Source: Gymnopus androsaceus JB14 | Taxonomy: Eukaryota > Basidiomycota > Agaricomycetes > Agaricales > Omphalotaceae | Direction of reading: 5' to 3' | DNA length: 64,000 bases | Assembly (NCBI GenBank): GCA_009733575.1 | Contig: ML769435.1 | Location: 225,491-289,490, forward strand | Part shown: piece by piece, positions 891 through 39,071 of the stretch | Position numbering within the stretch: position 1 is the first letter of the stretch | How the letters are laid out: each line of letters begins with the position of its first letter | The notes under the pieces: generated by a model | Seen by the model: only the letters and a program-made list of their open reading frames with translations | What the model was told of the DNA's origin: nothing | Database searches by the model: none | Made by a program: the position numbers and the translations under genes

Positions 891-2355
891 TTATGGTTGG
901 TGGTGGAAGGGTAGTAGGTGTAGTAGTTTGGTCGGATGGAGTAGGAGGTCTGGAATTACAAGCTCGATAAGTCGTACGATCCAGAATGGTGAGAGGTGAA
1001 TGTGATCAACAACTCTTGGAATATAAAATGATGAAAAGAAGGATAAAAGAAAATAGAAAAGGTGGAGGAATAGGAATGTAATAAAATGAATATAACGCAA
1101 ATGCATAAAGGTTGTGTGAAGAGTGTTCACAAACAGTCTTTGCACTTGTCTTGCTGACTTAACACGGCTCTCCGACTAGGAATGGAGCAATGTCCCATGC
1201 GCTATGACCCCTCTCCGAAGATTGGTTATCAGTCAAAAGCTTTCAACTGTCAGTACTACGAGTTGGGCTCAACGTTACTCGTGTTGTACTATAGGTGCTT
1301 ATAAGTCTAATTGGGTGTAAAGATCTGTAAGGCAAAAGGTTGGTAGAATGGTGAGCATAGTGTGTGGGATGAGAAAATTATGATTGCATAGTGTGGAATA
1401 CAAAACATGAAATTTTGAGTAGCAAGAGATCACAACAATGTCGAAGAGTACTGTCGACCAGTTATCAACAACGAGCAACTATCCGTGACGAGTGGAAGAG
1501 AGTAGCTTCAATTTTCTGTCAGCGACTAGTTCCCCACAACACGAGGTACCAGGCGTTACAACTTCCGACTTAGGCAAAGACAAGAATGATGAGGAAAAGA
1601 GAAGAAGATGATATTGAGAACTAGGAGGTATTGACAAGATTGAAGCTAAGGACTAAGCTACAGCTACAACTACTATATATACTAAAGTACAAACCCTAGA
1701 CCCTAAGCCCTATACCCTAACCATGCAGTAACAATGCATGAAACAATGAAAGACAACAAGTAAACAACAATAAGTAATGATAGGTCGATCACACAAGTAT
1801 GGACATGCTAGCATGTGTTATGATCAAAAACAATCATACTCTGATCAACAGAACCTAATTGCACGTCTAAACAGGCGCGCGCTTATATAGATGTACAAGG
1901 GTAAATAAAGGAAAATGATAAGGAATAACATCATGTGTCTGATAAGATAAGAATGTTCGTAACACTTAGTATTCTGAACTCAAACTATACTGTATAGTTT
2001 TGACTGTGAGCTCATGAGGGGGTCTCGAACTAGGCTGAATTAAGAGTTGTAATGCATAACTAACACATTTAAAATTCAAATTTTGCGAAATAGTAATGCA
2101 ATTTTCAAAAAATTACCCAAAATGGCAGTAAAAGAAAAAACACAAATTAACTCAATTTAGACAAAACTTGTGAAATTGAAGTTTGGCCATAACATGTAAC
2201 ACCCACTGAACTTATGGTTGAAACTATACAGTAGCATCAATGAGAAACTTACTTTGCTCACTGGCTGTGCATGGAGCCATGGGTGTCAGGGTGAGTGAAG
2301 CAAACCCAATGATTGTATCAGAACAGCAACACACTGGTGTGCAATTCCTGAGTGG

Positions 2356-2379
2356 CCCATGTCTGAATTCAGACATGGG
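2356..2379. repeat. 24-bp perfect palindrome
   Basis: The sequence CCCATGTCTGAA followed directly by its exact reverse complement, centred on GAATTC. There is no loop. Chance occurrence of 12 paired bases at a given position is low. Function unknown; it could be a footprint of a transposon end or a cruciform-forming site. Confidence 0.8.
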
Positions 2380-3039
2380 TCTGAAAAGAGGTTCCATGAC
2401 CATTGTTCTGGGTAGCTAGCCCCAAAAAAGGAAGGAAAAGAAAAAAAAAGGAAGAGGATTATAGATTTTTTTCTCACTTATCTGAAGTGTGGATAAAGGC
2501 AGAGAGAGGCTTAGAGTCAATTAGTTTTGAATATCTGGCCCTGCAGGAGCGGAACAGCTGTACTGGAGCTGACTGAAAGAGTGGAGCATGTACCACTGTA
2601 GCAATGAGATCCCAGGTCTCCAATCATTCAACTACATATAACTTGAGGTTATCCTTGCATGTAGTTTAAGAAAATAGAGCCCCAATAGAGCCTTCAAATT
2701 ATCATGAAAGAACTGTAATGGCCAAAATTTTGGCAGATTTCATTGCTCAAAGAGGTCCAAGATCAAGAAAAACAGTAGATTCAAAGGGAAGATATACAGG
2801 ACAATTCTACATTCTTCTACAAGCAAATTTAGTGAAAGAAAGGATTGTAAAGCAAGCTAAAAGATACATAAGTAGCCAAAGTTATCTGTAACTTATCTGC
2901 AATTGCAGCTTTTTGGACGCTCTCAGTGGGTACCATTGCATATAATATTCATACTATGTGTATAGTGCTAGGAACTCCCCATATTATTTTTGTGATTTAC
3001 CAGAATATTCTGGTCATTGGCAATGCATTAAGCCTTCGT

Positions 3040-3067
3040 GCATGTTATCTGTGTGCAGATAACATGC
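3040..3067. repeat. hairpin, 12-bp arms, 4-nt loop
   Basis: GCATGTTATCTG, loop TGTG, then the exact reverse complement. No T-run follows, so a terminator-like role is not suggested. Confidence 0.75.
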
Positions 3068-3240
3068 AGATAGCAGCTGTGGGAACCCAGAAATATCATT
3101 GGTCAGCCGGAATTTTGGTGCCTTTGGATCTGCCGGCCGTCAGCTCCCCAGGTCTTGACCCAAAATAACGGGAAAGTTACAACATGACATCATGGCCATC
3201 AACTTTCAAGTGCCGTTCATGTGAGTTACACAATGAATGG

Positions 3241-3265
3241 GAGGCACCTGGTTTCCAGGTGCCTC
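3241..3265. repeat. hairpin, 11-bp arms, 3-nt loop at LINE 5' junction
   Basis: GAGGCACCTGG, loop TTT, exact reverse complement. It sits about 20 bp before the first recognisable reverse-transcriptase residues of the LINE, so it may mark the truncation junction. Confidence 0.75.
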
Positions 3266-3282
3266 ACAGGAATGCCCCCGGT

Positions 3283-4500
3283 GTATCCGAATGATAGTCA
3301 TTTATGCAGAATATGCTGAAAAGAATGGTATGTTAGTAGCACTGGACCAGGAGAAAGTGTATGATAAGGTCGCCCATGACTACCTGTGGCGAACAATGGA
3401 CCAGTTCGCATTCCCAGAATCATTCACATCAATGGTAAAAAGCTTGTATGAAAATGCTCATACCAAAGTAATGGTGAATGGTTATTTGAGCTCGGAATAC
3501 AAAGTGACAAGGGGAGTATCGCCAGGGGGACCCAATGTCATGCCTTCTATTCGACCTGGTAATAGAGCCTCTGGCGGCTTCACTCCGGAAATCAGGCCTA
3601 AAAGGATACAGTGAAATTCCCGGGGTGGAGACAAAATTGATAGCGAACCTCTTTGCTGATGACACAACGGTTTTCCTAGCGGAAGACAATGACTTTGAGG
3701 ACCTTGAAAAGATACTTGACAGATGGTGCACAGCATCTACAGCAGTCTTTAATATTGCAAAGACACAGATCCTACCAATCGGTGAGAAGGAGTACAGAAT
3801 GCAGATAATAACAAACCAGGGAGCATCACAGGATTGACAAAAGATTCCCCAAAATATCCACATTGCAGTACAAGATGAAGTTTTCAGGATCCTAGGAGTA
3901 TGGTATGGGCATGGTGACCAGAGCAGTGCCGCATGGACAAACCAACTTGAGAAGATAGACAAGTCACTAGCGAACTGGGAAAGAAGTAACCCTACAATGG
4001 ACAGGTGTAAGAAGATTGTACAAATGGTGATTGGCGGAATGACACAATACCTCACCCAGGTCCAAGGGATGCTGAAACGTATCGAGAAAAAACTAAAGAA
4101 AAGGATAAGACAGTTTCTTTGGGCGGAAAAGAAGCTCAGTCCAGTGAACTTTGAGACCCTTCTAGCGAGCAAGAGTGAGGGAGGTCAGGAGGCTCTGGAT
4201 ATTGAAGCCAGAAACTTGGCAATTGAGGTAATGTGGCTGAAGTCATACTTTGGAGTATGGGATAGCTGACCCGTCTGGGGAGAAGTAGCAGATGCAATGC
4301 TTGCAGGGCCAAAGGCAACACCAGGAGCAGAGAAAAACGTGGACCCTGAAGTCAAACACAGTTTTTTCACTCAATCATGGAATACAAAGATATTAGCGCT
4401 CCCCAAAACCCTGCAGAGACTGTTAAAGACGGCCAAGAAAGTGGGGATGAGAATGGAAGGAAGAAACTTCTCCAGGGAAATTCAGTGAGAACGTGACATA
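3283..4500 (+). pseudogene. LINE reverse transcriptase and thumb region, degenerate
   Basis: The frame reads ALDQEKVYDKVAHDYLW (RT motif around the first catalytic Asp), a decayed RGVSPGG segment with a frameshift near 3530, then MSCLLFDLVIEPL and the catalytic box LFADDTTVFL near 3650. The frame stops at 3837 and resumes as the conserved post-RT region with W..NPT, GGMTQYLTQVQGM and RQFLWAEKK, then ARNLAIEVMWLKSY. A further stop lies at 4267. In the LINE family this enzyme copies element RNA at a nicked chromosomal site. The FADD box is intact, but the frame breaks make function impossible. Confidence 0.8.
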
Positions 4501-4599
4501 TGGTACCATGATGATGCATTGCCACTAATTTGACTTCTGAACAACTCAAGGGCAGCTCATTGCCTGAGGAAAAATCATGGAGTTAAAACAGTAGGCCAG

Positions 4600-6198
4600 G
4601 TGGAAAAGCTAGCAGGCTTCCTGGAAGAAGTCCAACACATCCTTTGGGATGAGTGTGAATGCCACAACTGTGTTGAAGCAGATGAGAACCTAGGCTGTCA
4701 AAACCCCCATGCCTGTTTCTCCAAAGCAAAAGAACTACTTGATACACTCATGCCGGAAGTGGGATCCACGGTTCCCAAACCAAGAGGAATTGGAGAGCGC
4801 ACCCGAGACCCATGATGGGTGGGAAGAGATCAACTTGCGAGTAACAACCCTTGGGACCCTACAAGACACCTTCAGAATCTTTACCAAGGGAAACATATGC
4901 AAAGAAACAGTACCAATTAATCCAAGAGACAAATGCAACCCAGGAGAGTCACCAGTCATGGTGACCATTGCCAGAGTTGAGGCCAAGAAGGGAGAAGTTG
5001 AAGCACGAAGTGGTACAGGGATGCTGATAAAGACCCGGGACAGCGAGCAAGAGAGGGCATACCAAACACCAGAACGATATGGCCAAAATGCGGAGGCGGG
5101 AGAACTCTTTGGTATTCTCAGAGCTGTCAAAGAAGCCAAAACAGATAAACCACTCAACATTGAAGTACAGAGAAAAACAACAGTTAATCTGCTAACAAAT
5201 AAGGCAGTGGAACTCAAAGACCGAGGGTACGTAGGTGTGCCAAACAAGAAGATAATCCAAGAGGTAATGGAGAATATCAGGAATCGGAAGCACCGAACTT
5301 TTATACGGGAAAGTAAAAAAGGAAACACCGAGGAGAAAAGAAGAGCCTCGAAGGCTAAGCAAAAAGCAAAGAAAGGACTCCACATGAATGAGGAAATGGG
5401 CCCAGAGGAGATGAAGGACCCAAAAATGGGACAGTCAGGTATTAAATTGCTAAAGGCAAGCCAATGCATTAGTGTACAAAGCCATCCGAGAGCAACAAAT
5501 GAAAAAGTATAATGCAAACATCGCAAAAGCCCAAGTGTCAATGAGAAGGTTGCATAAAAAGAACCCAACAAGAGATGAGATTTGGAAGGGAATCCGTCAT
5601 AAAGACCTATCGAGAGAAACCTGGTATTTCCTGACAATGCTGACCCACGATGACTGTATGATAGAATGAATTGGAGCAATTGATAAACCAGAATTATGGG
5701 AGCAAGCAAGGTGCAGGAGGTGCCAAACCACGGAGTCATCAACACACATCTTGACAGAGTGCCAATGCAACAGGCAAGAGGTAATATGGAATCTAGCAAA
5801 AGAAATATGGGAGAAAAAGGGTTACCAATGGCGGAAACCAGACCTCGGAGATATACTCACCTGTGCCCTCCCAAAGTTCAGCAAGAACAAAAACGGCCAA
5901 GGAGACTCGAGGCTCTACCAGATACTGATATCGGAATCAGCGAGACTTGTCTGGCTAATTCGAAACAACAGGGTTATTAACAAAAGAGCCCAGGAGATGT
6001 CAGCAATGGAGGTCAAGAACCAATGGATAGCCGTAATGGATAAACAGTTAACTCTAGACTGGGATATGATGCACCCAAGGTTCGAGAAAAAAGCGCTGCC
6101 CAAAAACCTGGGAAGGGGTCCTCCACAATGAAAAGGAACTGCAGGAGTACTGGATGAGTTCTAAGAGTGAGGTTTTAGTGGGTATTCAGCCGGATTAG
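4600..6198 (+). pseudogene. LINE RNase H-like and C-terminal zinc-binding region
   Basis: After a frameshift near 4710-4800 the frame 4709-5512 runs through GTGMLIKTRDSEQERAYQ and NAEAGELFGILRAVKEA, resembling the RNase H domain found downstream of RT in Tad-like elements. The next frame carries SRETWYFLTMLTHDD. The last holds CRRCQTTESSTHILTEC, a CX2CX7HX4C zinc-binding pattern typical of LINE C-termini, ending with LVGIQPD and stop at 6198. At least four frame changes separate these pieces. A long minus-strand ORF over the same bases (4735-5799) is a shadow. Confidence 0.7.
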
Positions 6199-6289
6199 GA
6201 GAAAGGTAGGTTGGGGTAGAAATGGAAGAGGGAGTTTGAGAGAAGGAATCCGGCTACACGAGTCCCACACTCTGTGCATAAATGCATTT

Positions 6290-6460
6290 CCTCGCGGTGA
6301 TCCGACTGAGCAATCAGATGACATGCTAACCTGAAAAGGCGCACCACAAGAGTCATCTCTAACCAGGTTTGAATCCCTGGTCTCAATCTAGCAGGCAAAG
6401 GAGAGCGACTATGTCATCTTGACCTGAGCCATTACTGCTCCACCAAAAAAAAAAAAAAAA
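6290..6460 (+). repeat. LINE 3' untranslated tail with tRNA-like B-box and poly(A)
   Basis: GGTTTGAATCC at 6366-6376 differs by one base from the tRNA internal promoter B-box GGTTCGAATCC, and is followed by a pairing CCTGG. A weak A-box-like AGCAATCAGATGA lies about 55 bp upstream. Sixteen A follow at 6445-6460. A full cloverleaf cannot be drawn: the anticodon arm does not pair well. It may be a tRNA-derived SINE fused to the LINE tail, or coincidence. Confidence 0.35.
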
Positions 6461-6714
6461 TTTTTTTGATTGTTCTCATATTTTTTGCTATCCATCACTC
6501 ACAAAGAATTGACACAAATAGTTCTCATTAGTGTGATTGAGATAGAGGACAATATCAATTTCGTTCATACTTTCTCCGAGTCCAACAGATGCCATGGAGA
6601 GGAAGCCTCAATTTTCTGACGAATACACGATTTGGAAAGCTTATTAAAACTCAAATTACTATCAGTTGATTTCAGTTTTGACTACAATTACAACACTACA
6701 ACAATTTAAGCAGA

Positions 6715-8810
6715 TGTAGGTCATGCTCCTTCGCAATAAGACCTCCCCTTTTCACTTCATCATGCCAAACTATACTCATGTCCATTGATATATCTGCCGG
6801 ATACCATGCTTCCCCAACTCTTCCACTCCAATCAAAGTCAATTAAACATCATACCATCTTTTGTCTGAATAATATCCAGTAGTCACAGATCACCAAACAC
6901 ATAGCCATCATTGTGCAGGTGGCGAATCGCTTTGTCTACTTGTTGAACAGCAGCAGATGAAATCGGAGTATTGTCAATACCATCTTCCTCAGCGACGTAA
7001 TCCATAACAACAACATACAGATCCCCAACATCAGTGACCTTTTGACAATGGTAAAGTTCTGGTGCCAATGGAGGCTCATGCTTGGTCAGCAGTGTGTGGG
7101 CCTCTTCGCAATAAGACAGCATGAACTTCACAACGACTAGGCATGTCAATGATTTGCCTGTGTTATCTGACCAAGACATATCTGCATGAAACACCATCTT
7201 TGTGCTATATTGGGAGGCTAGCTGCGAGGTGGATAAAAGTGTGCAATGGTGACCATCCCAGACAAAGGCCTTCCAAAAAGGGAACATTTGAGGGAGGGAA
7301 GAAGGGTGTACAGTTCTGGATGTAGATACAGCAGGCAATGCTAGAGGAAATGCTTGTTCAGTGCAATTTATGCAAAATATGAGCTTGGAGGATGTACACT
7401 TAACACTATGGGGAAGCTCAAGATTGGAATAAAATTTGGACAAATCACCTGAGCATATCTTGAGAGCACAGAACATTTTCACAACCTCTCGTACAGCAAC
7501 ATTGAGGACAGATCGCTCTCCTCCTTGCCGACCAAGCATTGACCCCATGCATATATAATCTGTGAGTTTTTGCGTATATAAGCAATCTGCAAAGACCGCA
7601 CCAGCAACAGACATATGGGACCCCTCATATGCAACAAGAAATGCAGGGCAACATGAAGAGGCAGCAATAAAAGAATACTATGGGCGCACTCAGCAAGATG
7701 AGCCATTCCTAGTTGAATGAAAAAAGACATTTGGGCTAGAACAAACAGAGGCATAATAAGCATCTATTTGGTCAGCAGCATTGCATCCACCTTTGGCAAT
7801 CTTGTTCTTGATTTCATGAAGACCACTGTATGCCTTTGGATTGTTCGGAAGTTTAGTGCAAAAGACAGAAATGTTGCCATCGGGATTAGCACTCCTGGCT
7901 CCTCTGAGCAGTATAGATTCTGTCACCCAGAATATCATTAGTTCCTCCAAGTCAAGTTGTCAATCCCCTTCGTTGGGATAAAAAGAGGTCAAGATCTCAA
8001 TAAATCTGTAGGCTTGATTGAGCTGCGCGGCGGTAAAGACAACGTCGGATGAATTTTCATTCATAAGGCGGATGAATTTAGCAAAAACGGGATGAAATAT
8101 TGTGATATTAGGCGGTGAAAGTTCAAGGGGACAGTGGTTGAAAATGGCTCCAAGGTTTGTCTTTGTCTGGGTTTTGCGCAATCTGTTGTTTTTAGTGCCA
8201 GTAGACGGAGAGTCTTGTTTTCGGCCTGCAGTGACCACTTCTTCCCTGGCTACATAGAGTCTGTGAGTAATGATCTGACTGAATATAGAGCCAGCAGCCA
8301 ACTAGGTAGAGCGCTGTTTTCATCGACAGCATGCAACCTATTAGGGGTGGGTGTTATGGGTTCAAATACTGGAATCGAGAATGCTATCAGGGGATGCTTA
8401 AGGAATGGAGGGATAATGATATGCACACGCAACAAGAATCATAGATATCTGACCCTCTGGCCCATGGATCTCGCTAGCATAATCCGCCCTCTTTTTGAGT
8501 TCTGTTATTTTGCTTGGAAAGGTGCTTTTGCCAGTGTTCCAGGTTCGCAGAATAGATACAGGATCCACAAGCTGAATGAATAATGAGTGGCAGCTGACAG
8601 AGATGGAGAGTAAAGTCAACAGACCAGCCAGTATTGCTCAACCCTAAGCTTCAACCCCTTAGGCGCCTTCACTGTCTCCAATGCATTTTCTTCGAGTACT
8701 GCGACAGGGATCCCTTCTTGAACATTCAGGGAATAACAGCCATAATATTCTAGTTTCTGTTCCTCATCAACCTTTTGGATTAGGATTGGATATGAAATTT
8801 TAGTCATCAT
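6715..8810 (-). pseudogene. fungal protein-kinase-like gene (FunK1/crinkler-associated type), degenerate
   Basis: Minus-strand pieces line up in order. First an N-terminal block (8810-8616, MTKISYPILIQKVDE...). Next a block with WNTGKSTFPSKITELKKRA and HGPEGQISMILVACAYHYPS (8619-8398). Then a middle block (8301-7690) interrupted by a TGA at 7960-7962. After a frameshift near 7690 comes the kinase-like block ending HNDGYVFGDL (7614-6883). Beyond its stop the same frame continues with a spaced DFDWSG, GEAWYPADIS, VKRGGLIAKEHD pattern to about 6715. The catalytic-loop form Y-V-F-G-D-L and the D-F-D-W metal loop are typical of fungus-specific kinase-like proteins. The function of the parent family is unsettled. 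At least three stops or frameshifts show this copy is dead. The family name is from recognition, not a search. Confidence 0.6.
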
Positions 8811-9955: not shown

Positions 9956-10106
9956 GTTTATGGGCCCTGGCCTTAACCATTGACGCATCATATTGCCGTA
10001 ACCCTTGTTCATGCCACCCAGGCCAGCTCCATCACCTCTACAAACTTGACAGGGGATTAAGGCATCAGAACAAGCACCACCAGTAACTTGACAATGTTTC
10101 ATTGCA

Positions 10107-11729
10107 TTGGAACAAGCCAGCTCATTGAGTAGCAAAGCTGTAACACCACAGCAGAGACAAGCACCATTACCTCCCACAGATGACACTGTTCCTTGTAAAG
10201 TACACCCACACATCTTTGACATCAATGAATTAGTTGACAGGTACAAAACCAGAACCACTGGAAAGTGGAACCAGTGCGATAAACAACATTGCCTAAATCG
10301 ATATGACGTACCTTGGACAGGTAAATTAGCAAATTTTGCGAAACTCATTGTGAAAGAACAGGAGGAAATTATTAGAAGTCACCTACAACACAATGACAAT
10401 GATGACAACAAAGAGGATACTGAAGCACCTGCTGCTCAACCTATTGCAGAATCACCAGGCACTTTAATTGCTGATTCCGACAACAACAACGAAATGTCTA
10501 AAGCAATGAAAGCCTTTGATAAGGTTACAACCTTAAAGTCAGACGGATCAAACTGGGACATGTGGAAAACACAAGTGGAATTTGCAACCAGATCTATCAG
10601 CTATCAGCAATTTCTGGAATGGAATCCGCAACCCTTGGATGCGGAAGGAGCTGATGATGAAGATAGGGGAAAGGATAGTGATTTGCTTAATGCAATCATT
10701 GGCAGGTTATCAGATGGAATATTCCGCAGGTATAGGCACTACAACAACACGAAGCAGTTGTGGGAAAATTTACTTGCTGGTTATGATTCTAAAAACGCTC
10801 TTACTGAATCATTTTTACAAAGGCGACTTCACACCATGCAATGCACGGACCCATCCAAGGTCAATAAACATTTGGACAACATAATCAACATCCGTGACGA
10901 CCTCACTACTAGGGGAATTGATATCAACAACAATATATTTGCCAACACCATTATGTCCTCTGTCCCTGACACCTTTAAAGCCATGATCAATGCTCTCGCT
11001 ATTTTTGCTGTTAAAAACAAAAGCAAGCTCAATCCTGCTGAGCTTATTTTGACTATCTGTGCAGAAGGAATGGTCCATCAAATGCAACATGATCACAAGA
11101 AGGAATCAGCAAATTATGCTGGTAACAGGGGAAGAGGAGGTTTCCGAGGTTGTGGAAATTCCTTTAGGGGAAATTCCCAAGGCAGAGGCAGAGGCCGCGG
11201 AGGATTGACAAGTCATCAGAACTCTGTTTATTATAATTGCGGAGGTAAAGGTCACTTTGGAAATCAATGTCCATCGGAGAAACGCAGTCAGGCCAACAAG
11301 GCCAAGGAGACAAAACCTCCTAAAGAGAAGCAGAAGAAGAAGTCAGATGGAAACTGGAGAGATAGGCCGAAGAACAATGAAGTGGCATCCTCATCCATGA
11401 TTGAGGAAGTACCAGAGTCATCATGGGCAGCAATTGAAATTCCAGCTAAGCATGGGAATCTTGTTTTCAATTTTTCCGAAATAGCTGATAAATTTGAATT
11501 AGCTCTTTCATCGCCGAGCGATCAAAGTTGCATAATGCAAAACATCAAAGTTGACACTCCGCCACCTCTTACTCTTAAGGATGAAGAGGAGGAAGAAGTA
11601 TACGTCAACATTGATCACGCTTACGCTGCAGCCCACAGTTATGGAGCAATTCTTTTTGACTCCAGATGCTCTACCCACATGACACCACTCACCGACGAAC
11701 TCAGGAATCAAAGGGAGATTCCAGCATGA
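10107..11729 (+). pseudogene. copia gag with start of protease
   Basis: A 540-codon frame. Residues about 140-330 are the copia gag capsid region (LKSDGSNWDMWKTQVEFATR..., then LWENLLAGYDSKNALTESFL). Next is an RG-rich basic stretch and a zinc knuckle YYNCGGKGHFGNQC in which the first Cys of CX2CX4HX4C is replaced by Tyr. Protease begins with LFDSRCSTHMTP, where the family has D-S-G-A/C, so the catalytic triad glycine is lost. The frame stops at 11727-11729 (TGA), and the polyprotein would have continued. The start is taken as the first ATG; the region upstream to the LTR holds no earlier in-frame ATG of note. Confidence 0.85.
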
Positions 11730-13118: not shown

Positions 13119-15083
13119 CTGCTAATGAACCAGCTGTCCATACAAGAAACGGTTTGGTATTAAACCAGGACATTACTAATCTTCGCATCTTCAGCAGTAT
13201 TGTTTATGTTAAATGAGAAAAGAAACCCGGCAAATTGGAACCACAGGCCCAGGAAGGACACTGGATAGGACTCAAATCGAATGGTCACTACATCTACTGG
13301 CCAGCATGTCACACTGTCATGACATAGAGGAATGTAGTTTTTTCTGACAGGCAGATCCAACCCATTGAAGGGGAGGATGGAAATTTGGGAAATTTAGAAA
13401 CATCGGTCACTGAGTCGGAACAGCCTGTCATACCAGTTCCAGAAGAAATCGCCAAACCAATTGCACCAGACAAAGTATCTGGCAAACAAGTCAGACAACC
13501 CACCAAGAAGATCAGGGACGTCATTGAAGGACTTGGAGAAGGAAGTGATGAGTTGCGACATCTTACCGCATCTCTAGGTCAGGTAACATCAGAAATCAAA
13601 TCTGATCCTTTCTCTGTTGCAGAAGCTATGTGATGACCTGACAGCTCCAAATGATACAATGCCATGAAGGACAAAATCTCCAGACTCCAGGAGCGTGGAA
13701 CCTACACAATTGTCACTCCACCTCCAGATGCAAATATTCTCACATCCAAATGGGTCTATTGGACCAAGAAAGATGAATGAGGTCACATTACAGGACACCA
13801 AGCTTGTCTTGTTGTGCATGGATTTAATCAGATCCCAGACATTGACTACTTCCCAGACGAAACCTTTGCATCTGTTGCAAAACTCATATCAGCCCGTGCT
13901 ATACTCAGCATTGGAGCTGAGAAGAGCATGATTATTCACCAAATGGATGTGAAATCAGCTTACCTTTATGGGAAATTGGATGACAACGAGCGCATTTGTA
14001 TGAAGGCACCTCCAGGCACTGATATAGGGGTAAAACCAGGTCAAACTTTACGGACTTAAACAAGCCGGTCAACAATGGTACATGCTATTCAGGGAAATCA
14101 TGACCCAACTGGGGTTTAAATGGTCTGATTTTGATCACGCTGTTTTCTATTGCACTAATCCCTTCACCATCATTTTTATACATGTTGACAACATGACATT
14201 GGTTACTGAAACCCTGGCCATCATGGAGAAACTGAAGAAAGATATTGGGGCTATAATCAAAGTTGTTGATTCCAGAGAAATCCATTGGCTACTTGGGATT
14301 GAGATCCAAAGATCTCTCCATAACAGGATGATTCACTTATCCCAGTGGTCATACATTGACACCATACTCTCTTGCTATGGATTCTCAGATATAAAGCCAC
14401 TCTCTATTCCCTTCGATCCCCACATCCACCTCACCAAAGACCAATCACCCAAAACGGTTGAGGATATTGCTTTCATGTGCGACAAACCCTACAGAGAGGC
14501 CCTTGGTGCTCTCCAGTACTTATCTGTTGCTATGAGACCTGACATCACATATGCAGTCTCTATCCTTGCTTGCTTTTTGCAAAACCCCGGCATCACTCAT
14601 TGGAATGGTGTACACCGTGTCTATGCCTATCTCAAATACACCCAAGACTTTTGGCTCAGTACGAGCAACCAGGAAACAGTCCAAGGCTATATGGATGCAG
14701 ATGGTATGTCCCAAGAGGACCAACATGCTATTTCCGGGTACATTTTTATGTTGAATGGCAGAGCAGTATCTTGGTCATCGAAATGACAGGATACCATTTC
14801 TTTATCCACCATGGAAGCTGAGTATATCGCTTTGACCCATGCAGCAAAGGAAGCAATCTGGCTTAGGAACCTTTTATCAGAAATCTTTGGTCCCATTACT
14901 CATGCGATCCCTATCATGTCAGACAATCAGTCCGCCATTGCATTGGTGAAGGATGATTGTTTTCAAGCCAGGACCAAACACATTGATATCCAATACCACT
15001 TCATCCGCTATGTCATCGAGGAAGCCTTACCTTCAATGAAAGCCAAACACTTTGCAGCATCCATGGGATTAGCAAAGGTTTGA
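13119..15083 (+). pseudogene. copia reverse transcriptase and RNase H, degenerate
   Basis: Pieces of one polyprotein over several frames. The integrase C-terminal region resumes after the MITE (KPGKLEPQAQEGHWIGLKSN). A linker follows (13385-13633), then RT with QMDVKSAYLYGKL (first catalytic Asp). LKQAGQQWYMLF follows after a stop near 14060. The catalytic box reads FIHVDNMTLV, where copia has YVDD, so the second Asp is Asn. Next are GALQYLSVAMRPDITYAVS and RNase H (GYMDADGMSQEDQHAISGYI, then STMEAEYIALTHAAKEAIWL) with a TGA between at 14784-14786. The final stop is at 15081-15083, just before the polypurine tract. Catalytically dead. Confidence 0.88.
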
Positions 15084-32754: not shown

Positions 32755-32902
32755 GTAAGAGTTATGGCAGGGCAAAGCAGGGATACCAACCTGTATTTGA
32801 TCAGATCGATTGTTGCTTTGAAGTTCAAAGGGCATGCGAGTAACATCGATGAAGCATTGGAGAATGCCCGTATATCTAGGATATCAGTTTTGATGCAAGG
32901 TA
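32755..32902. repeat. duplicated segment, left part
   Basis: Close match to 27490-27643, including exon 2 of the small gene. The copy breaks at GATGCAAGGTA, where the MITE begins. It continues at 39072. Confidence 0.85.
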
Positions 32903-33463
32903 CAGAAGCAAACCCAGAAGCAAAAAATACCCAGAAGCAAAATATTTGATATTTGAGTCATATAGATTGTGTTTTAGGATGCGGTTTTTTTTATACAGCC
33001 TCTAAAAGGGTTCCTGGACATGACTAGTATAACATAACTTAGATACAATAAATCCATTATAATATGATCATATATATGAACACTATGCCAAAAATGCGAT
33101 TTTTCTCAGTTTTTGAAATATTATGAATTGTACCATGAAATCTGTGGTATTTTTGGGCATACAATAGATTCAATCTACTCTATGAGCATGCAAAGCCATG
33201 CTACAAGCAATCCCAAAGGGATGCGGACATGTAGAGGCCCAATTAGCCCAAAGTTTCGCTTCTGGGTTTTTGGCAGGTTTTGGCAGCAAAAGATAAATTA
33301 ATTTATGATGCCATTTTTAGGCCCTCAAAAATTCTGATAAAATCAGATCGTAATCCTCGCATATTATACAACCTATAGAAAAAAAAGAATCAAGAGAAAC
33401 CATGCAAAACTGCCCTGAATATATCAATTTCCTTAGAATTTTTCACTTCTGGGTTTGCTTCTG
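32903..33463. mobile_element. TA-flanked MITE with CAGAAGCAAACC ends
   Basis: Left end CAGAAGCAAACCCAGAAGCA and right end reading CAGAAGCAAACCCAGAAGTG on the reverse strand (26 bp with 2 mismatches). TA flanks both sides (32901-32902; 33464-33465, repeated again at 39070-39071). A TA duplication is the hallmark of Tc1/mariner-type elements. 561 bp, no coding capacity. The 5.6 kb transposon later inserted at its right end. Confidence 0.85.
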
Positions 33464-33465
33464 TA
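33458..33465. repeat. 8-bp target-site duplication CTTCTGTA (left)
   Basis: Identical to 39064-39071. It includes the last six bases of the MITE and its TA, so the order of insertion is clear: the MITE came first. Confidence 0.9.
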
Positions 33466-36400
33466 CAAGGGGGATCTGACAGCTGAATTTCCAAAAACGT
33501 CTTTGATCATCCTTCGCCGGTCCGCGAGTGCTAAAACTTTCAGATGGCGAAAACCTTTGCAGACCTTTAACTTTTATTATCTCTTAGTAGACACTTTTTT
33601 GAATAGACAGAAATTCTTTAATAGACCTTAAAATTGAGACTCTGAATCCATTTGAAGTTTGAGCGAAAACTGAAAGAATCGCAAGCAAAATACGGAAATG
33701 CACATGGGAACGCGTTGTCCGCGCCACTTGCTTCCGTCCTTTCACTTGCTTCAAACTTGCCTTCATTTCGACATGGATAGCTTAGGGATTTACGGATCGG
33801 ATGATGTAGAAATGGGTAAAGAACAAATGGAAGAGCTAGATGTTGAGCTTCCTATGTTCTCTGAGCAATTTAGCATGGCCGATTCATCTTTTGAAATGGA
33901 TTTGGATGTTGGCACCGATCCTTTCAATATTCATTCAAAATCACGCATCGACGCGTACTTCCAAGAGTCAAGTTTATCACATCCTTCACTGAGCTTGATT
34001 GAACGCTCTGGACCGAATTCATTTCCATTCCTAATGCCGGAATCTCCAGACAAGGCTTTTTCTCGTTCCCGGTCAAATTCCATCTCAGTTCTTCCACCAA
34101 ATTCTCCAGATGAACTGTCATCCAGTTCTCGTAGTCCCTCCTTTTGATTTTACACTCCAAAAACCACCCCATCCACATCTGCACGCTCAGTACCGATTCC
34201 CCTTCCCAGTCCTGCTGGAATATGCGAATGTGATTTATGTGGCCGCTCTGTTCAAATTAATGCCTCGAATTACAAGTGGGAGTCGCACTGCGATAGTGAG
34301 CAGTGTAAAAAGGCTGCAGGGAAACGGAAATGTGCAGAGGAACAGGAAGAGAAGAAAGAAGCTGAGGATCGACATCATAGATCTCTTTCCATAGAGAGCT
34401 CTCGTTCGCGTTCCATATCCGTGGATATTACTCGTGCACGCTCATACTCATTGGTATCAAGTATCCCATCTGCGGAATCTATATCTGTCTTTTCTGTCGC
34501 TTGCCCGGGTGTTCCCTTACCACCAGGGATGTCCTCTTATGACTATCCAGTCATGATACACGAAGTCGCATCAAACAAATATCCCTTTCGACCGGAACAA
34601 CAGGTTTATCAAAGCCAAACCGAGCCAATTCAGTACATCCGTGCTCTCAGTTGCCGTCAAGTGTGTGCAGTCAGTGATGTAGCATGTCCGGACTGTATTG
34701 CAGCCTTGGAAAGTGATGCATTTATGGATCTTCAAAGGAGAGTGCTTTCAGAGCCCATGCCTCATGTACCTCGAGAAATGCTGTCTATCAAGCAGCTACA
34801 TACACTGGTACAGCGGAAAGACAAACTCTTATGTGTAGAACGTCTAAAGGTACAAATATCCTATCTCATTATCAATTTAATTATTATACTAACCTATTCA
34901 CATTCAGGTTGCAAATCTCGAGCGTTGTTTAGAGACGGCTACCAAGAGAGTCACCACATATAAACGTATCACTGATGCTATATCGGAAGGTGATGTCAAA
35001 CGTGTAGACGCAGTTGTACAAGTAGCAATACGACAGAATGCTAGTCCTGAGGAAATTCTGGACCATCTTCGTCATGCTGCCAACAATGTCTATGCAGCCA
35101 AAGGGTTTACTAGTTGCAAAAAGGATTTTGTTCTCCTCTTAAAACGTCTTGGTGCTGGATCGAACGGTGTTTATGCTCTTTCGAAGATGTTTGGTCTACC
35201 ATCTATGACCACTGTCCGCAGTTCCCGCTCAGTCCGTCTCAAGTTGTCCATTTCAGCTATTACTCCGATTGATATTGCCCACAACTTTACCACGTTTGTT
35301 ATCCCCCGTCTCTTGAAACCCAAAAGCGAATCCAGAACAGGTTCTAGTATGATGTGGGATGGTTTCCACGTCACTCCGAAGGCTCAGAAGTCTGGAAACG
35401 AGGTCAGCGGGATGTGTAGGGAGCATGCACCAGAGCACGATTTAGCTCTCCGTGACCTCGGGACACTTCAGAAGCTTGCCTGTGCTGTGCATGAAAGTAG
35501 AACATGTCACTATGCAAAGGAGGCGACTGTCTTCCTTCTAGGTCCGCTTCAAGGCCACCACTACTCTGCCATCCCTTTCGTTCGTTTCAGGCTCATGCCT
35601 GGCAGAGAAAGCTCCTCAGCTTGCATGAACAATTGAGATCATGATGGATCTTTACGAAGTCCATATAAAGCCTTTTCTCGGCCCACTATTTATGACTTGT
35701 ACTGATGGCGCTGCTGTTTACTGTGCACCACAACACTTCATCCTTACGTCTACAATGCCAGCACATGGATCGTCCCTTCATACAATGTTATTCTATCTCC
35801 CTGGCTTCAATATTTCTTGTGGAAAGTACGACATTGTGTTTGGTCCAGATCCCAAACATATTATCAAGAGTAAGTATTCCCTCATAAGACTTCTGATTAT
35901 TTTTCTAATTGCTTTTTATTCCAGGAGCGGCAAATTTACTTTGATCCGTGGAAGGGATGCTCATAATTCGTATTCCGATTACACGTATCATCCTGCAGCA
36001 ATGGCTCGGAAAGTTTCCTTGGCTCACGCCAAAGATGGTTGATAACCTCATTGACCCTGTCGACCATCAGAACGTCCCTAAAGCAGTCAAACTTCTTCGA
36101 TTTATTGCGATGATACCGCAACAGATTCCTCCCCGAGGTGAGATGGATCCATCTGAGGCCAGTGAGCATTGAGCTTTCGACCTTACAGGATGTCTCTGGG
36201 CCCATCTTTATCTCGCATTCATTGATCCTTTGCTCTCCCTAACGGACCAACTCACTAGTCTTGCGGTCTACTTGCATCTCTGCATGATACTCTATCGCCA
36301 TCATGGGAGCTCTCTGATGAGCTCTCAGCTTTATTACGACAGTCAGGCTCTTGTAAAATCAGCCTTCTTTTATTCGGCACATCAAAACATCCTGGATCCT

Positions 36401-39063
36401 GATGAAAATGTTTATCTCTATCTAGGCGGAAGTGATAGAGGCGAACGCAAATTTTGTAACGTCCGGGTCGCTACTCATGATACCAATCCCGACATACTTG
36501 GTCTGGCCAACAGTCTCTCAGAAGATGCGGATATGGATCGTATCATTGAAGAAAATCCAGATCTGAACAGAGAGCACCGACGGACTTCATGGACTAGTTC
36601 TCCGGATATTGATCATGTCAACCCCAAGTTTTACAAGGGTAATCTTCGAGCGGGTGATGTGAACATTGACGGTGCATGGAATATGGGTTGTCGGAAAGCC
36701 GAGGAAATTCTACGGCTCTTTGGCATCGAAATTAATTTTGAAGAGATCTTTTCCGACAAGAAAGTGAATGTCCTTCAGCCATTTGGGGATGGAAAATACC
36801 CTGGTGTATCTCTTGATGAGCCCAAGGATTGTTCCATCATAGATTCTCCTTCCGATTTCACACTAGATGAATTGGTTGAAACGCTGAATTCAGACAATCT
36901 TGTCTTAGCTCCCACACCCTCTCCTTCTATGTCTACCCCCGCTCCACTAGTTCCACCTACCCTGGCAGATGCTACTCCTCTGGTCATTGCATCAGATATT
37001 GTCCTTTCATCGCCATATAGTGTTGACACAGAATGTGATCACCAAGAGGATTCAGAGAATGAGGGTCTCGGTGAGGATGAGAGCTTGGGAGAGCTTGACC
37101 ATATTGCTTCCGCAGCTTCACAGCTTACCAATGTCAACATGACACTGAGGCTGCAGGAACTTGCTATGTTGCTTGACTTACGAGACATCTTATCTGCTCC
37201 CGATAGCGAGTATCTCGTGAAAACAGCTGATTTGGTCAAGAATGAAGATGATTTCTTCACTGTTCAAGTTTCTCCTACCTCTGATCCTGGATACATCTAC
37301 AAAGCCTCTGCAATCCGTATGCTCTTTTCTGACAATGGATGCCGCCTCTCTCCTGACCGCATGCTTCGAGTCCATAGTTATACCCGGGGTGGACCGCGAC
37401 ATCTTATTGACGATGACAAGCTGCTCGAAGGTGATATATTCACCATCGGACAGATGGCTATCATCCCTATTCGCACTGAGAACATTATATCAGTTGCACT
37501 GATGAAAGTCATGCGTATTGACAATATCTCTACCAAACGCAAACGACTCTCGGATGCCAATGTCTCTCAATTTGGTACCACAGATTCGCTGCTTGTGGCC
37601 TCCAGTCACATTTATGATCTTGTTCATGCCCTTCCTGTGGTCGACAGAACTTCCTGCTCCCCTGTTAATGTTGAAGACCAGATTTGGGTTTCACCTTCGA
37701 ACTTTATAACATTTACAGTGAGGAAAGCTAAATCAACAGCTTCTACCAGTACACTCGAAGATGGTACAAGAACTTCCTTTACTGTGCAAGTACCAGGCGC
37801 CCTTGTCCTTCCAGTCCTCTCTCCTCATACTATTCCCATTGATTCCATCCCTGAAACCCACCGAAAGCGGTTATCAATGATTGGAAGCTTAGGTGCATTC
37901 TCCTTCAAGGAATCCAAACTCGCTTCTTTTGTGGAACAACTTGCAACCCAGAAGGGACATCCAGCATTCAAAAAGCTCAAGAAGTATCAGCGGAGCACTG
38001 CTTTCCCATATACACGTCCTAGTATGTATCTTTCCATGAGTTCTGTTCTTTAATGCTAGCTCTTTTTTGCTCTGTAGATTCTGACACAGCTCCATTTGTG
38101 ATTGCTGACTTGGCTATTACACGGGCTGTTCCGCCTACTCTTGCTTCATCTGTCGGCTCTGATAACAATCCAACTTTGATGCCAAGGGCTGCAAACCGAT
38201 GTCGGCTTTGCAATGCAACCATGACTGCAGCTGAAGGTCATAGTCGGGGCCACACTAGCAGACATGTTTGCATAGTTATGCAATGTATCAGGATAGAGGA
38301 AGATCTTATCGAGCAGGTGAGTTTGTACATCCATCCTGTGTTTACTTAAGTAATGATTTCAATGTTTAGGTTGATACTGATTCCCCATGTGGCTTTTGTG
38401 GCGGAAATTGCACGGTTCGTGCTTGAAATTACACGCAACAACACACAAAAAGTCATTTCAACATGTCCGTGGTACCATTCCTTCCAATACAAAGCTGCCT
38501 CCAAGCCGACCACTGCCAATCCGTCTACCAATGTTCCCATCATCTGCACGATATGCCATCCTGAGAAACCAAACTTCAATAAATCATATTCTGCGGTTTG
38601 GAAATACAACTTCATGCGTCATATTCAGCTTCATCATCCATCGCTTTGGGACGATACAATCAATGATGTTATTGAAGATCTACAATATATCGACCTTTGG
38701 AACAATGCGAGAGTTCCGCAATCGGAAAAGGATACCATAATAGCTTGGGCACGTAAACGTGCAGAGACTGGGGGGGCACAGAAGCGTCAACGTACAAATC
38801 TCCCATAAATACCTACATGCTAAAGTTGTTTCGTGCTCTTTTATTGATATTTCGGTTTAATTCTCTACTACCGTGCTACATACTTGTATTCCGAAGCAAT
38901 ATTACAAGTTTAAAATGCCAAACGCAGCGAAATTGTAAAGAAACCGACGAAAAGCACTGTGTGGTAGGACCGGACCGCGGGATTTCCTAATTTGGGATCA
39001 TGATCATGGTACCCGTAAACTTTTAGGGATGATATCACTAATTTTAATTTCCGATCCCCCTTG
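33466..39063 (+). mobile_element. DNA transposon of unassigned superfamily, 5.6 kb
   Basis: Terminal inverted repeats CAAGGGGGATC (33466-33476 and reverse complement 39053-39063), 8-bp duplication CTTCTGTA outside both. One plus-strand multi-exon gene fills it. Removing the element and one duplication restores the MITE end followed by CATGATAAG, exactly as in the paralogous site at 27643. An 8-bp duplication fits hAT or KDZ/Zisupton, but the duplication lacks the hAT A at position 7, and the protein shows neither the hAT C-terminal dimerisation motif nor KDZ motifs that I can recognise. Confidence 0.88.
33773..38808 (+). pseudogene. putative transposase with N- and C-terminal zinc-binding segments
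   Basis: Start ATG 33773. The intron 34131-34190 removes an in-frame TGA. Exon 2 holds CECDLCGRSVQINASNYKWE with a distal His and Cys (zinc-finger-like). Introns follow at about 34850-34907, 35871-35924, about 36140-36189, about 38023-38078 and about 38317-38369. The core reads VYALSKMFGLPSMTTVRSSR, MMWDGFHVTPK, MCREHAPEHD, YAKEATVFLLGPL, TCTDGAAVYCAPQH, DPKHIIKRAANLLRS, LIDPVDHQNVPKAVKLL, then SQLYYDSQALVKSAFFYSA and HRRTSWTSSPDIDHVNPKFY. The C-terminus carries CRLCNATM...HTSRHVC, CGFCGG, CTICHP and a WKYNFMRHIQLHH end. Asp residues in WDG and CTDG are candidate catalytic positions. Breaks: frameshifts near 35580 and 35620, and one near 38416. I know this protein type as a repeated, unnamed family in Agaricomycete genomes. 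Confidence 0.7.
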
Positions 39064-39071
39064 CTTCTGTA

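Follow-up and report, generated by a model that had tools for sequence, protein, structure and literature searches.

A decayed cut-and-paste DNA transposon of Gymnopus androsaceus, very probably a P-superfamily element of an Agaricomycete-wide clade

The 64,000-nucleotide stretch of Gymnopus androsaceus JB14 analysed here (contig ML769435.1, positions 225,491 to 289,490; hereafter the window) holds a mobile element with one large gene, which the original prediction could not fit to hAT, KDZ/Zisupton, pogo, MULE or CACTA and presented as a candidate for an undescribed superfamily of DNA transposons. To which superfamily does it belong? We consider it very probable that it is a P-superfamily element, a cut-and-paste DNA transposon now decayed, within a clade that extends across the Agaricomycetes and is unnamed in the sources searched.

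The element, its ends and its decayed gene

The perfect 11-bp inverted ends proposed for the element are present, as CAAGGGGGATC lies at both termini on opposite strands and nowhere else in the window (two sites only, even with one mismatch allowed), and the inverted end pair reaches 14 nt with one mismatch (Table 1). The site count alone is little proof, since 0.96 sites with at most one mismatch are expected in the window and at least two were obtained in 24 of 100 shuffles. The exact 8-bp duplication was recovered as well, with CTTCTGTA identical on both flanks; this 8-mer is not rare, being found four times in the window against 2.19 expected. The neighbour of the element is a 565-bp inverted-repeat element (32901-33465; 29-nt arms, 93% complementary), the end of which recurs at at least 38 other places in the genome. 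As the left duplication is at the same time the end of this neighbour, the window by itself offers weaker evidence than first appears. The genome yielded no empty site for the window copy either, the reason being that the left flank consists of a repeat stopping at the duplication. The ends and the duplication of the window element are settled by other copies in the genome.

The multi-exon gene described in the original prediction, with its quoted phrases and Cys/His groups at both ends, is there, but it is not intact, being interrupted by three TGA codons and a frameshift; the window copy is incapable of making the whole protein. It retains the D-x-x-H motif as well as the Asp, Asp and Glu positions discussed below. 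Seven pieces of the gene gave only matches below cut-off in Pfam (B12-binding_2 at E 0.0014, PDZ_1, GP17 and a C2H2 finger). The window element has a sister copy, L009 on C88, with 97.6% identity, the two being separated by 125 transitions and 7 transversions. Among these differences, 99 are of the CG to TG/CA type, suggesting that methylated cytosines were lost from silenced copies, and the window copy looks worn by CpG mutation.

Table 1. Coordinates of the element and of its predicted gene and protein features in the window
Feature	Position	Strand	Remark
Left 8-bp target-site duplication CTTCTGTA	33458..33465	+	also terminus of the neighbouring repeat
Whole element	33466..39063	+	5,598 bp
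Left terminal inverted repeat CAAGGGGGATC	33466..33476	+	
Decayed multi-exon transposase gene, likely ATG to TAA	33773..38808	+	extent inferred from ORFs and tblastn
In-frame TGA stop (decay)	34145..34147	+	
N-terminal Cys/His group CDLC..H..C	34217..34306	+	without Pfam match
Likely intron, GT..AG	34850..34907	+	inferred
Helix-turn-helix region ending LPSMTT, corresponding to P residues about 157-196	35070..35250	+	homologue profile alignments; boundaries approximate
Putative first catalytic Asp in MWDGFHVTP (35352-35378), P D230	35358..35360	+	
Frameshift (decay)	35580..35592	+	
TGA in the homologues' frame	35626..35628	+	common to sister copy L009
Putative second catalytic Asp in CTDGAAVYC (35698-35724), P D303	35704..35706	+	
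D-x-x-H motif in GPDPKHIIK, P D339-H342	35848..35859	+	
DPVDHQNVPKAVKLL, P insertion domain around V401	36053..36097	+	
In-frame TGA stop (decay)	36170..36172	+	
Putative catalytic Glu in GGSDRGERKF, P E531	36443..36445	+	
Conserved HRRTSWTSSPDIDHVNP beyond the catalytic domain	36575..36625	+	
C-terminal Cys/His groups CRLC..H..C, CGFC..C, CTIC..WKYN..H..H	38194..38637	+	weak zinc-finger matches
Right terminal inverted repeat (CAAGGGGGATC inverted)	39053..39063	-	
Right 8-bp target-site duplication CTTCTGTA	39064..39071	+	

Copies and empty sites in the host genome

Protein searches of the host assembly (83.3 Mb, 934 contigs) yielded 27 coding loci, every one of which was examined, and DNA searches with both ends led to 16 further places, 14 of which were examined while C345 and C99 were left out, giving a set of 41 loci. 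With at most one duplication mismatch tolerated, an end pair and an 8-bp duplication were found at 15 of the 27 coding and 8 of the 14 other loci. Whether relatives are bounded by comparable ends and 8-bp duplications was a check named in the original prediction, and 23 of 41 loci answer it positively. The duplications of these 23 elements are exact in 19 cases and differ by one base in four. Their length is given as 8 because the eight positions are concordant in 21-23 of the 23 elements, whereas the 13 flanking offsets tested are concordant in 1-12 (offset 9 in only six). As a control, left and right ends were taken from different coding loci; at equal stringency this produced no match among 270 CA-starting pairs and eight matches without the start constraint, compared with 15 of 27 for the true coding loci.

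The ends of the 23 elements read CAAGGGG or CAAGAGG, barring four left ends (CGAGAGG, CAAAGGG, CAAGGAG and CAAGTGG), and loci with ends have a core identity to the window element as low as about 21% (C11). At L040 a CAAG pair was chosen over a rival end pair of equal score. A comparison of 15 elements showed no subterminal inverted repeats that all of them share, and 18 of the 41 loci (L013, L016, L019, L036, L039, L042-L048, L028-L032 and L034) gave no end pair.

Several copies that keep both ends are short, four of them measuring 524-539 bp and others 711, 916, 1,903 and 2,103 bp. Their longest stop-to-stop frames span 54-95 aa in the six copies not exceeding 916 bp, whereas the two longest copies reach 152 and 170 aa; such copies fit derivatives that may have been moved in trans. 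When the flanks of the C27 copy are joined, matches at 15 other places span the junction, each with at least 280 of 292 bases. Three of these places, read base by base, contain a single copy of the duplication and no element, the duplication being identical at one and changed by one base at two of them. The same joined-flank search of the genome with the C71 copy gave no empty site. Supported by the 23 bounded loci and the C27 empty sites, the element is a genuine DNA transposon with fully defined ends, as had been claimed.

Evidence for the P superfamily and the readings set against it

Homologue searches, each limited to scoring the roughly 8,000 candidates with the most words in common, gave 130 distinct homologous proteins, and those with an organism name are, we presume, all from Agaricomycetes. 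The word transposase occurs in none of the printed names, which bears out the notion of a recurrent unnamed protein type in this class, and a precomputed Pfam domain is absent in 129 of the 130 ('hypothetical' or unnamed). Relatives in viral contigs were not found. Each relative is predicted to be a single large protein, with annotated lengths of about 1,000-1,700 aa in the longer ones. Of 131 aligned sequences, 110 had a sufficient part of the core, namely L012 and 109 homologues, and conservation was counted in these with gaps excluded. A midpoint-rooted tree shows two groups, one of 52 members that includes L012 and represents the window type and one of 58, with support values of 1.0 and 0.66. 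In the core alignment the first Asp is kept in 96/98, the second in 106/107 and the Glu in 104/106 sequences, while the D-x-x-H motif keeps its Asp in 110/110 and its His in 109/110.

The P superfamily is absent from the original list, and it is indicated by fold, profile alignment, Pfam pointers and catalytic signature, which overturns the statement that the protein fits no superfamily. A structure check for an RNase H fold with a D-D-E triad, suggested with that statement, gave a positive outcome in a predicted model of a homologue from Clavulina, which belongs to the other of the two clades and not to that of the window element. The model places the Asp residues on beta1 and at or after beta4 and the Glu on alpha4 of a predicted RNase H fold. 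Between beta5 and alpha4 it has a helical insertion domain resembling the one in P transposase, to which the homologue is 15% identical over the aligned part. We compared these features with the P-superfamily catalytic signature as given in the accessible part of PMC8230255. Its [C/D](2)H-type motif after beta5 finds its counterpart in D-x-x-H, which is preceded by a strand (458-461) in the model and aligns with P D339-H342. The second Asp is equated with P D303 by its position just after the strand taken as beta4, not by alignment, and the Asp three residues upstream of the putative catalytic Glu aligns with P D528. The 8-bp duplication required of the P superfamily was found in the 23 elements described above.

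Profile comparisons point the same way with lower scores. A full-length alignment to P covers 365 columns at E 8.1e-5 and a probability of 33%, in a global mode that partly forces colinearity; local hhalign probabilities are 16.7%, 5.1% and 0.8%, the Glu piece not rising above the best shuffle. PDB profile searches returned 6p5a at E 0.39 and 0.57, with no P match for profile A5 and nothing for profile A6. The proposed Pfam check of the core did give P-type matches, as TNP-like RNase H models matched 21 of 43 homologues with a best E of 5.8e-5, but every bit score shown lies below cut-off (12.2-14.6 vs curated cut-offs of 24-24.6). Most of these matches belong to the clade that does not contain the window element (2 of 15 in A1), and one RNaseH_C match (P0016, 437-447) lies away from the Glu motif. 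A classical P family was not detected in the genome with PF21787 at E<=0.001, which carries little weight, a 14-genome control being silent too. The match to the P superfamily is one by fold and weak profiles, not one significant Pfam hit.

It is on this point that the original view keeps some ground, according to which the protein represents a new superfamily having only the general plan of an RNase H core and an insertion domain in common with P. The 15% identity, the lack of a match seen above any Pfam cut-off, N- and C-termini unlike those of P, GTP-contact residues mostly lost by alignment and the weak sequence scores in the PDB profile searches would all agree with it. We nevertheless judge it unlikely, as the claim fails on the match to an existing superfamily, and set it aside mainly on fold, with weaker support from profiles. 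A divergent hAT element would likewise account for 8-bp duplications and short CA-starting ends. The hAT duplication type is nTnnnnAn, however, and only 1 of the 19 exact duplications conforms to it, so that the originally noted dissimilarity to hAT stands; this sequence and the fold rank of the model disfavour hAT and leave it a barely credible reading. Just as improbable is a KDZ (Zisupton/Kyakuja/Dileera) element, for which the host group and the 8-bp duplications speak (Zisupton, 8 bp, in the part of PMC12730594 available), but of which no family appears among the Pfam matches of the homologues, a separation made by Pfam only and with uncertain profile sensitivity. MULE, CACTA and Plavaka, like KDZ, were judged by Pfam and are without support there.

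Relation to known P elements and proposed mechanism

Animal P transposases carry a THAP domain near the N-terminus. A THAP match was found neither in 15 + 43 homologues, many of which lack the N-terminus, nor in the N-terminal parts of the window gene, L010, L012 and five long homologues. In the accessible text of PMC7776569 the domain is said to be animal-only, and we did not assign the element to the THAP-bearing animal P/THAP9 subgroup, given the missing THAP match.

The P-superfamily reading rests on a plan shared with Drosophila P (PDB 6p5a, 6pe2), which likewise has a helix-turn-helix, a split RNase H domain with D230-D303-E531, the D339-x-x-H342 motif, an all-helical insertion domain and 8-bp duplications (PMC7776569, in the portion available). 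In contrast to it, the mushroom clade has no recognised THAP domain and an N-terminal Cys/His group instead, a C-terminal extension that is several hundred residues long and carries Cys/His groups and, in the window element, perfect ends of 11 bp compared with 31 bp in P. P elements in rust fungi, earlier unknown in any Dikarya, were reported in 2011, and like the present element they reside in a basidiomycete, with autonomous and non-autonomous copies in Melampsora and 8-bp duplications (PMC3164196, as far as accessible). Their hosts are rusts and not Agaricomycetes; they are listed in Repbase as P-1_PSt, P-1_MLP, P-2_MLP, P-N1_MLP and P-N2_MLP and were compared by description. THAP9 and zebrafish Pdre2, also compared by description, share the P catalytic signature and, in zebrafish, 8-bp duplications (available parts of PMC7776569 and PMC8230255), but are animal proteins with a THAP domain.

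In the open-access literature we found no P element from Agaricomycetes, for which a Repbase entry is possible. PMC12730594 treats TET-carrying transposon lineages in fungi and does not use 'P superfamily' in the accessible main text, and the term 'P-element' is absent from the available part of PMC10799480. New are a widespread Agaricomycete clade without a recognised THAP domain, its long Cys/His C-terminal extension and possibly an altered GTP pocket. The 130 'hypothetical' or unnamed proteins can be proposed as P-type transposases, which takes a recurrent dark family out of Agaricomycete gene sets and extends the P superfamily within fungi.

A GTP requirement is a feature unique to P transposase. 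Its contact residues are K385, K400, V401, S409, F443, D444, N447 and D528 (PMC7776569, accessible part), of which at most two, V401 and D528, have equivalents in the mushroom clade by an alignment that is poor in that stretch; K385, K400, S409 and D444 appear lost, subject to the same uncertain alignment. We tentatively raise the possibility, more doubtful than the superfamily assignment itself, of a P branch with an altered or lost need for GTP, an insertion domain without the known contacts and Cys/His groups in place of THAP. As a divergent P branch, the clade would offer a setting for studying the reason for the GTP need of Drosophila P transposase and the evolution of its end recognition.

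As for transposition, the protein is predicted to consist of the N-terminal Cys/His group, a long helix with the helix-turn-helix and an RNase H core split by the all-helical insertion domain, a plan completed by the long C-terminal extension with further Cys/His groups. Most likely it would bind near the element ends and pair them, excise the element by its putative D-D-E active site and join the ends to the target with an 8-bp stagger, which would account for the duplication of 8 bp. Copies with internal deletions but with both ends intact could be mobilised by the same protein in trans.

A minor observation concerns the palindromy of the duplications, a property of the P target, for which 24 of 76 pairs were complementary where 19 would be expected, and positions 3/6 accounted for 10 of 19.

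Decay of the window copy and variant copies

When the transposon in the window was compared with its sister copy at locus L009, the two being the closest copies, we found 125 transitions against only 7 transversions, and 99 of the differences were of the CpG type. This pronounced transition bias, together with the CpG-type changes, is a strong sign that decay was driven by methylation.

The copy at locus L014 is 932 bp longer than its relative L012, a window-type member of the family. Its C-terminal reading frame is interrupted by additional sequence, probably a nested insertion. The distant copy L020 has near-identical ends that far exceed the 11 bp seen in the window type.

Coordinates of the transposon copies and further elements
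Feature	Sequence	Position	Strand	Details
Inverted-repeat element, 565 bp	window	32901-33465		29-nt inverted arms, 93% complementary
L014 copy	reoriented locus	1542-8554		related to L012
L020 distant copy	locus L020	1872-7412		near-identical ends >80 bp that differ slightly
Copia-type gag and reverse transcriptase fragments	window	10092-11729 and 14034-14786	+

C-terminal features of the homologues

Among the homologues of the predicted transposase, P0014 and P0016 have a longer C-terminus with additional Cys-rich sequence. One source names P0070 a PHD-type zinc finger, and a Pfam PHD match was obtained for one of the 43 homologues scanned.

Target sites and the adjoining element

Of the family's 19 exact duplications, 10 have complementary bases at positions 3 and 6, where about 5 would be expected: a possible, weak preference for target sequence.

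The transposon (33466-39063) is directly adjoined by the 565-bp element, whose last 8 bases are the transposon's 8-bp duplication. Its inverted arms begin with TACAGAAGC, its terminus recurs at no fewer than 38 other places in the genome, and it resembles a MITE with a TA duplication.
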